Source: Subtercola sp. Z020 (GTDB lineage Bacteria; Actinomycetota; Actinomycetes; Actinomycetales; Microbacteriaceae). Taken from it: a stretch of 35,445 nt of DNA. A program made the position numbers and the translations under genes. Of the stretch, positions 18,175 to 19,480 are shown in pieces; the stretch's first letter is position 1, and each line of letters begins with the position of its first letter. The stretch lies in NCBI RefSeq assembly GCF_002931235.1, contig NZ_PSTT01000026.1, forward strand, positions 1 to 35,445, in the 5' to 3' direction. Under the pieces are notes generated by a model. That model was not told where the DNA came from, ran no database searches, and saw nothing but the letters and a program-made list of their open reading frames with translations.

Positions 18175-19200
18175 GTGACTGAAATCTTCTACGACGCAGA
18201 CGCCGACCTGTCGCTCATCCAGGCGAAGAAGGTGGCCGTCGTCGGCTACGGCTCGCAGGGCCACGCCCACGCACTGAACCTCCGCGACTCCGGTGTCGAG
18301 GTCGTCGTCGCCCTCAAGGAGGGCTCGTCTTCGAAGGCCAAGGCCGAAGAGGCCGGCTTCCAGGTGCTGTCGGTCGCCGACGCCACCGCGTGGGCCGACG
18401 TCGTCGTGATCCTCGCGCCCGACCAGCACCAGCGCGGCATCTACGCGAACGACATCGCCCCGAACCTGAAGCCCGGTACCGCGCTCGTCTTCGGCCACGG
18501 CTTCAACATCCGCTTCGGCTACATCCAGGCGCCCGAGGGCACCGATGTTCTGCTCGTCGCCCCGAAGGGCCCGGGTCACACCGTGCGCCGCGAGTTCGAG
18601 GCCGGCCGCGGCGTTCCCGTCATCGTCGCCGTGGAAGAGGATGCCTCGGGCTCTGCCTGGGCGCTCGCCTGGTCGTACGCCCGTGCCATCGGCGGGCTCC
18701 GCGCCGGCGGCATCAAGACGACCTTCACCGAAGAGACCGAGACCGACCTGTTCGGCGAGCAGGCCGTTCTCTGCGGTGGCACGTCGCAGCTGGTGCAGTA
18801 CGGCTTCGAGACGCTGATCGAGGCCGGCTACCAGCCGCAGATCGCGTACTTCGAGGTGCTGCACGAGCTGAAGCTGATCGTCGACCTGATGTGGGAGGGC
18901 GGCATCGCCAAGCAGCGCTGGTCGATCTCCGACACGGCCGAGTACGGCGACTACGTCTCGGGCCCGCGCGTGATCACGCCCGACGTCAAGGAGAACATGA
19001 AGGCCGTTCTCGCCGACATTCAGAGCGGTGCGTTCGCCGAGCGCTTCATCGCGGACCAGGATGCCGGAGCCCCCGAGTTCCTGGCGCTCCGCGAGAAGGG
19101 TGCACAGCACCCGATCGAGGAGACCGGCCGCGAGCTGCGCGCGCTCTTCGCATGGAAGCAGACCGACGCGGACTACACGGAAGGATCAGCTGCGCGCTGA
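18175..19200 (+). CDS. ilvC: Ketol-acid reductoisomerase (NADP(+)), class I
   Basis: The protein has 341 residues, the short class I length. It isomerises and reduces acetolactate or acetohydroxybutyrate with NADPH and Mg(2+). The Rossmann motif is [14 protein letters not shown] (about 23-36), the cofactor loop [13 protein letters not shown], and Mg ligands are Asp191 and Glu195 (TDLFGEQ). The start is GTG 18175 with AAGGAG 10-15 nt before. The 82-bp gap after ilvN contains the 11-mer CGGGCATCCGG (18130-18140). The final codons (EGSAAR-stop) form the 5' part of the first unit of an 85-bp repeat array, and the TGA stop lies inside the 3' arm of a 10-bp hairpin. Confidence 0.97.
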
Positions 19201-19480
19201 TCCTTCGGTGCCGCTCACGCGGTGCCGTGTTTGTTGGTGCGCCGGCCGGTGGCCGGCGCACGTCGAAGGATCAGCTGCACGCTGATCCTTCGGTGCCGCT
19301 TCGCGGTGCCGTGTTTGTTGGTGCGCCGGCCGGTGGCCGGCGCACGTCGAAGGGTCAGCTGCGCGCTGATTCTTCGGTGCCGCTCACGCGGTGCCGTGTT
19401 TGTTGGTGCGCCGGCCGGTGGCCGGCGCACGTCGAAGGGTCAGCTGCGCGCTGATCCTTCGGTGCCGCTCACGCGGTGCC
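19180..19480 (+). repeat. Tandem 84-85-bp hairpin repeat array at the 3' end of ilvC (3.5 copies)
   Basis: Copies lie at 19180-19264 (85 bp), 19265-19348 (84), 19349-19433 (85) and 19434-19480 (partial). Each full unit has three potential hairpins: AAGGATCAGC-TGCGC-GCTGATCCTT, a small CCGC-TCAC-GCGG, and an 11-bp stem GTGCGCCGGCC with loop GGT. The first 21 bases of every copy can be read as Glu-Gly-Ser-Ala-Ala-Arg-stop, the ilvC end; the copies differ in it only at synonymous sites. In copies 3 and 4 the A-to-G and C-to-T changes leave G-U pairs in the + strand RNA, so the stem is kept. Likely a multi-hairpin terminator or mRNA-stability element born by duplicating the ilvC end. Confidence 0.9.

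Follow-up and report, generated by a model that had tools for sequence, protein, structure and literature searches.

The ilvC gene of the window, by which we mean the whole 35,445-nucleotide stretch of DNA analysed, ends inside a tandem array whose units repeat the end of ilvC itself. What kind of element is this array, and what could it do at the end of a gene? Upstream of ilvC lie the genes for two acetolactate synthase subunits, as identified with Pfam. The array (19180-19480) was detected by TRF with a period of 85, 3.6 copies, 95% matches and a score of 560, the highest of the 41 TRF rows in the window. It starts with the last 21 bases of ilvC and, in agreement with a preliminary description of this DNA, comprises three full units and one partial unit, with the borders given in Table 1.

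Table 1. Features of the ilvC end and the tandem array (positions in the window)
Feature	Position	Strand	Basis or remark
ilvC, ketol-acid reductoisomerase, 341 aa	18175..19200	+	Pfam KARI_N, KARI_C; stop TGA 19198-19200
Unit 1, 85 bp, overlaps the ilvC coding end	19180..19264	+	
Hairpin 1 of unit 1: 11-bp stem across the stop codon	19180..19206	+	Equivalent hairpin covaries in relatives
Hairpin 2 of unit 1: 8-bp stem, two G-U pairs, GGTGCCGC/GCGGTGCC	19207..19226	+	Terminator-like with the T-rich stretch after it
T-rich core GTGTTTGTTG (decamer), counterpart of the GCTGTGCTTGTTGG motif of relatives	19227..19236	+	Alignment
Hairpin 3 of unit 1: 11-bp GC-rich stem, 3-nt loop, GTGCGCCGGCC/GGCCGGCGCAC	19237..19261	+	
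Unit 2, 84 bp	19265..19348	+	
Unit 3, 85 bp	19349..19433	+	
Partial unit 4, 47 bp, reduced to the tail hairpin and hairpin 2	19434..19480	+	
Terminator-like hairpin behind the array: 21-nt arms, 90% complementary, then TTGCGTTTT	19494..19561	+	

All four units open with GAAGG[A/G]TCAGCTGC[G/A]CGCTGA, which reads EGSAAR-stop, the end of IlvC. The 5' arm of hairpin 1 is made of the last ilvC codons, and the true stop codon lies within the 3' arm, as had been noticed earlier. The unit had also been called a double hairpin; it is indeed a repeat of hairpins, but a full unit contains three of them, with stems of 11, 8 and 11 bp. The copies differ at few sites. Within the tail, GGA is replaced by GGG in units 3 and 4 and GCG by GCA in unit 2. 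These changes are synonymous, as previously remarked; since copy 1 alone is translated, however, their synonymy is no evidence of translation. That changes in stems leave G-U pairs on the + strand is true of GGA to GGG and of a C to T change in unit 3, while GCG to GCA falls in a loop.

The + strand of 19170-19580 folds with -292.6 kcal/mol, compared to -210.2 (sd 6.3) for 100 shuffles, and the - strand with -255.5, compared to -176.7 (sd 5.2); on both strands a part of this energy is pairing between copies. The full unit is present at one place only in the 3.53-Mb genome, where the next best match spans 25 bp (E 0.02). A core-plus-hairpin model found three strong matches in G000, all in the ilvC array, and two weak ones (E 0.013-0.021). 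Elsewhere in the window, at 24295-24399, a 34-bp unit of the GGGGGAGGGCCGGGCATCCGGAACCGAGCG type is repeated 3.1 times with 93% matches before a minus-strand ORF, which by its look we take to encode a TetR-type regulator.

Units at the ilvC end in related genomes

In the genus of the window host, 5 of 12 genomes, the host's own included, match the unit at E <= 1e-4. Full units are found in G005, G009 and G011, and the tail hairpin only in G008. Beyond the genus we collected 129 ilvC 3' ends, mostly one per genus (L240, with an unreadable stop, was left out), and scored a tail copy whenever the last 18 nt recurred within 500 bp with at most 4 mismatches. A copy was present in 16 of the 129 ends (11/87 in the family and 5/42 elsewhere in the order), the nearest one lying 73-93 bp on; by the same criterion, control 18-mers from upstream were copied in 73 of 2941 cases. 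The unit is thus dispensable, 113 of the 129 ends being without it.

A covariance model built from eight units matched 31 of 398 family genomes at E <= 0.01, and ilvC was located at the match in 23 of 29 newly fetched loci. Exact copies of the 19-mer GGCAGCGCTGCGCGCTGAC number 36 and come from 26 of the 398 genomes; ilvC is present at all 30 places that were fetched, the 19-mer lying at the end of the gene or within the array. With genus-wide sets added, clear carriers, in which ilvC tail copies are 62-100 bp apart, are found under 16 genus labels of the family (g1, g11, g16, g26, g32, g35, g42, g51, g53, g68, g74, g75, g79, g116, g118 and g121). From the 44 carrier rows, six were removed as noise on reading (G041, G097, G098, G222, L081, L133), and the rows include duplicate genomes (L098 = G026, L120 = G063). 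Among the carriers are Gryllotalpicola ginsengisoli, Amnibacterium sp. CER49 and Microbacterium sp. 8M; g11 probably corresponds to Herbiconiux and g74 to Microcella.

The place and orientation are the same in the carriers, and the unit always begins at the ilvC stop. In 80 named loci, a tail copy was present at 3 of 76 ilvC ends and at 0 of 285 other gene ends (at most 3 mismatches), a weak contrast. The preliminary description had named absence from related genomes with variable copy number in this strain, together with no effect on transcript ends or stability, as what would reduce the array to a chance tandem duplication. The unit is present in related genomes, with varying copy number, so that this refutation fails; a chance duplication in one strain was rejected, since other species and genera have homologous units at the corresponding position. 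Short tandem tails occur as well: G352 has the L352-type repeat, and in L055 (G053) a 7-bp repeat (TAGTTGC) starts at the ilvC stop codon.

Pairing across the stop codon and a second fold

MAFFT alignments followed by RNAalifold missed the hairpins because loop lengths differ between sequences, and we therefore counted pairs in structures named by hand. In 21 carriers with a regular arm, the 12 coding bases before the tail face the 12 bases behind the stop. Watson-Crick pairs were formed at 220 of 252 positions; when arms were swapped between species 10,000 times, the mean was 185.7 and the maximum 209. In 111 array-less members of the family, the same arms form a mean of 3.1 pairs out of 12. 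Arms of 15 bases gave 253 of 315 pairs, compared to a mean of 208.7 and a maximum of 241 in 20,000 swaps.

An ungapped alignment of this fold, hereafter fold 1, was made from 19 of the 21 carriers, the two omitted being identical to others over the stretch. Seven pairs are changed on both sides, with 31 double-changed cells against 12.2 in shuffles, which leave the relatedness of the sequences in place, and 0-5 when the arms were slid. Further pair types number 12, no more than in shuffles (12.1). The non-coding 3' arm of hairpin 1 thus tracks the coding 5' arm through compensatory changes. One double change includes the stop codon itself: carriers have Gly GGC with TGA, and G061 has GGT with TAG, by which the pair is restored. 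Base pairing and the choice of stop codon may therefore go together.

Hairpin 3 differs in sequence between genera and is retained as a hairpin, with the shared GCTGTGCTTGTTGG-type motif in front of it. The core pattern GCTGTGCTNGTNNG taken alone was discarded: in all 16 genomes it is rarer than its backward reading.

In ilvC ends of three further families (f9, f13, f14), units of 88-93 bp start with the ilvC tail, which in f13 and f14 reads GGAAG[C/T]GCCGGACGCTGA, and close with a tail copy. Their fold, hereafter fold 2, is a different one: the tail pairs with bases some 40-65 nt downstream to form one long hairpin with GGA-type internal loops. Eight pairs are changed on both sides, with 15 cells compared to 4.1 in shuffles. 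In f14, fold 2 units are carried by 6 of 23 ilvC ends (24 genomes, one fragmentary ilvC being left out).

Which strand folds was considered separately for the two folds. For fold 2, 9 of 9 units fold better on the + strand, which also has the G-U pairs (-46.1 versus -32.0 in one example). For fold 1, energies leave the strand undecided, the + strand being better in only 10 of 30 units, with two ties. Mismatches in the outer arms of the first hairpin in 21 relatives comprise 25 A-C, which are wobbles on the minus strand, 1 G-T and 6 others; pairing would thus be better on the minus strand, although 13 of the 25 A-C mismatches lie opposite a single fixed base within a Tyr codon. Within the window, the opposite is seen, the changes between copies leaving G-U pairs on the + strand. 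Clear strand evidence therefore comes from the second fold only, and fold 1 leans to the minus strand. Of the earlier proposal that an RNA fold on the ilvC strand is being kept, the fold is borne out by compensatory changes in both fold types, and the strand is clear for fold 2 only.

These cores and folds also bear on the earlier suggestion of a serial intrinsic terminator, in which hairpin 2 and the T-rich core would end transcription in each unit. Of the six terminator-like sites in 18900-20100, the array contains five, at three places of which two are counted twice; the shuffled region gives 0.5 in total, and in hairpin 2 of window units 1-3, a GC stem is directly followed by a T run. This lends the suggestion weak support. 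However, the cores of most relatives read are poorer in T (GCTGTGCTTGTTGG type), fold 2 lacks a T run after its long hairpin, and a terminator-like hairpin of its own already stands behind the array (Table 1), followed by a small convergent ORF at 19620-19964 that has no Pfam match. We consider termination in each unit very unlikely as the explanation of the array.

Other host genes and the gain and loss of units

That the array re-encodes the C-terminus of its gene is correct, but this is not special to ilvC, since gcvP and der end in the same anatomy. A second array in Microcella has related units in 10 of 26 genomes at E <= 3e-8 (18 of 26 at E <= 0.01, the rest being weak). In 9 of those 10 the units could be placed by script and lie behind gcvP; they contain the core motif or a related one. 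The identity of gcvP was confirmed in G403. Over the 9 species, three of which have changed amino acids, 106 of 108 positions match between the gcvP coding end and its counter-arm. Arms swapped among species gave a mean of 87.4 and a maximum of 106, the latter because some species are identical.

In G403 (Microcella, 2.72 Mb) we scanned 1.6 Mb with 2189 gene-like ends. Tail copies with at most 4 mismatches, 53-112 bp on, were recorded at 16 ends. On reading, three of these were alike (ilvC, gcvP and der), three rows at two places were short-period repeats, and ten were due to chance. The short-period tandem repeats, near 710248 and 1476791, have periods of 33 bp and about 21 bp and take in gene-like ends. 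The unit of der (GTPase EngA), on the minus strand of L473 at about 15900-16095, is 87 bp long, with the stop-spanning palindrome GGCAGCGCTAGCGCTGCC, two hairpins and a core that differs from the ilvC/gcvP core motif. A second der unit is diverged, and its stem changes look compensatory.

The core-plus-hairpin model matched 34 of 40 genomes at E <= 0.05, many of the matches being weak. Three matches below E 1e-3 lie at neither ilvC nor gcvP. L456 and L460 have the core and hairpin at two further genes, behind a stop-spanning palindrome and without a tail copy; L463 is not alike. Two other places were noted. On the minus strand of L173 (G019, 1480-1540), CTGTGCTTGTCGG and a hairpin directly follow the 3' end of tRNA-Ile, as in ilvC units. 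In L174 (G244, 1450-1660), two consecutive copies of a GC-hairpin unit of about 100 bp lie behind a gene that by its look is presumably rpsT.

Arrays of n units have n + 1 tails, and the borders between presence and absence can fall exactly at tail copies. In f14, the flank immediately after the tail is common to G494 (empty) and G496 (one unit). A comparison of G488 (one unit) with G489 likewise shows a common flank, apart from nine bases that remain in G489. Remnant-like ends were seen in G489, G490 and G499, and in G471 in Microcella. In Microcella, the ilvC stop is TGA in 8 of 8 carriers and in 1 of 16 array-less species (Fisher 1.2e-5). TAG stands in the far tail copy of G084 and G460 (Microcella) and of G327, G211 and G347 (other genera), and a different serine codon family in that of G084 and G466, so that in some carriers the far copy looks like a former gene end. 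The remaining Microcella carriers have TGA in their far copies; the next tail copy of five of the eight has TGA or, in G403, CGA with TGA in the last copy. The look of a former gene end fits insertion, and also a recombination of ilvC that ended in a tail copy.

Divergence in the final 13 codons of ilvC is roughly double that of the remaining gene, and array-less pairs show this too (0.29 vs 0.14; 108 pairs, some genomes being present twice under two names). Tail divergence was therefore rejected as a mark of insertion, array-less pairs being equally divergent and divergence alone being no proof. Switches of serine codon family in these 13 codons are seen between close species, array-less ones included.

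Such borders would be expected of a non-coding DNA mini-cassette of 80-90 bp that inserts at gene 3' ends via its palindromic tail and brings a replacement tail. The old tail would be pushed to the far end, as with larger integrative elements, and a recombinase or hairpin-processing enzyme would act in trans. The n + 1 tails, the empty site of G494 next to the one-unit G496, the TGA of Microcella carriers, the TAG and serine codons of the far copies listed above, the additional hosts gcvP and der, and the minus-strand wobbles of fold 1 are all consistent with insertion. On the other hand, pairing itself favours TGA, the next copy has TGA (or, in G403, the last copy has it) in the five Microcella carriers mentioned, and the same borders result from ilvC recombination that ends in a tail copy or from loss between tail copies. 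Nor did the searches yield an autonomous relative among phages, plasmids and viral contigs. By blastn against phages and plasmids, the window array had no match at 1e-5 and the Herbiconiux-type unit only pieces of 32-37 bp (E 0.3). Scans of viral contigs gave one chance match for the 19-nt tail, in an unrelated region without ilvC, and 0 contigs with the tail-plus-core pattern. With chance pieces at most in these searches, a phage or plasmid origin was rejected. Insertion of a mini-cassette seems to us doubtful. If the unit is mobile, it would be a very small element with an uncommon manner of sparing its target.

Matching arms and tandem units might also arise and decay without function. A stop-spanning palindrome would stall replication, template switching would copy the arm and slippage the tail. 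Such an origin agrees with counter-arms that match each host's own codons, with the remnants in G471, G489, G490 and G499, and with the short tandem tails of G352 and L055. It does not account well for the core GCTGTGCTTGTTGG shared across genera and two genes together with third hairpins that are free in sequence but paired. The common unit length and the elaborate, covarying second fold also go beyond what slippage is expected to produce, and few of the 2189 gene-like ends in the 1.6 Mb of one carrier show the anatomy. We regard a neutral by-product as unlikely.

A reading of the array and its place among known elements

The reading that we favour, at slightly less than even confidence, is that the array consists of tandem structured gene-end elements that act in the mRNA as translation-coupled barriers and multiply via their tail copies. 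The gene's last codons and stop serve as the 5' arm of the first hairpin of each unit, with the matching 3' arm supplied just behind the stop, followed by hairpins around a short motif and by another tail copy that closes the unit. A terminating ribosome would open the first hairpin each time, and the hairpin would close when translation lapses. Later, untranslated hairpins would stay closed and block 3' decay or read-through. Copy number would in this way tune the 3' end of the ilvBNC mRNA as a graded barrier, and copies would multiply or vanish by recombination or slippage between tail copies. The anatomy, its recurrence at one position in many species, the compensatory changes, the borders at tail copies and the occurrence behind gcvP and der are observed; the role of the hairpins in the mRNA and the multiplication and loss of copies are inferred. 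Evidence against this reading comes from fold 1, with its missing + strand preference, its A-C mismatches and its further pair types no more numerous than in shuffles, and from the many ilvC ends that do without the unit. If the unit is an RNA element, branched-chain amino-acid synthesis in Actinomycetota would be controlled through it at the 3' end, and copy number would act as the dial. Sister species with and without units make the RNA and mobile readings directly testable.

More tentatively still, the units may form a new class of minimal elements: 62-100 bp long, gene-less, located at the 3' ends of essential genes and taking the host's last codons and stop into their fold. In this proposed class, the non-coding arm would be kept complementary to any coding end, with at least two ilvC folds over four families and gcvP and der as further hosts. 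As the unit is bracketed by tail copies, the gene could stay intact while the unit is gained, lost or multiplied. Host coding sequence makes up half of the unit, and there is little common outer-arm sequence between host genes, so that repeat finders and annotation pass the unit by.

Several known systems share parts of this anatomy. Integrative elements at gene 3' ends bring with them a substitute for the gene tail. Like them, the units leave the gene tail intact and have exact empty sites, and in some carriers the old tail seems to have moved to the far border; unlike them, they are only 62-100 bp long, tandem, strongly folded and without a gene, and no integrase was found nearby. Integron attC arrays have n units with n + 1 folded sites and grow and shrink, and the ilvC arrays are similar in both respects. 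They differ in having no coding cargo and a housekeeping gene end as the repeated site, and no attC boxes were noticed on reading. As in intrinsic terminators that overlap a stop codon, the hairpin begins in the coding end; here, however, the coding end is repeated too, most relatives read have little or no T run, and a further terminator-like hairpin lies behind.

The BIME-2 of enterobacteria stand in tandem at operon 3' ends. REPs within 15 nt of a stop codon are reported to stall ribosomes (PMC12306157). The ilvC units are likewise palindromic, GC-rich, tandem and close behind the stop, in reach of the terminating ribosome. In contrast to REP/BIME, the unit is not dispersed, being confined to one place in 3.53 Mb, and it contains the host gene's coding end, which differs for ilvC, gcvP and der and is tracked by the counter-arm. 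We know of no REP with the coding end of its host gene inside. A known RNA family was rejected, no Rfam 15 family reaching its curated score and the matches being sub-threshold only, one of them outside the array. The open-licence papers searched contained no description of such gene-tail units, in line with the preliminary description, which knew of no described family. Because the unit lacks the dispersal of BIME/REP, has no Rfam match at threshold and has no published description in the literature searched, we rate the gene-tail hairpin unit a new kind of element, to which BIME/REP arrays are the nearest known kind in behaviour.
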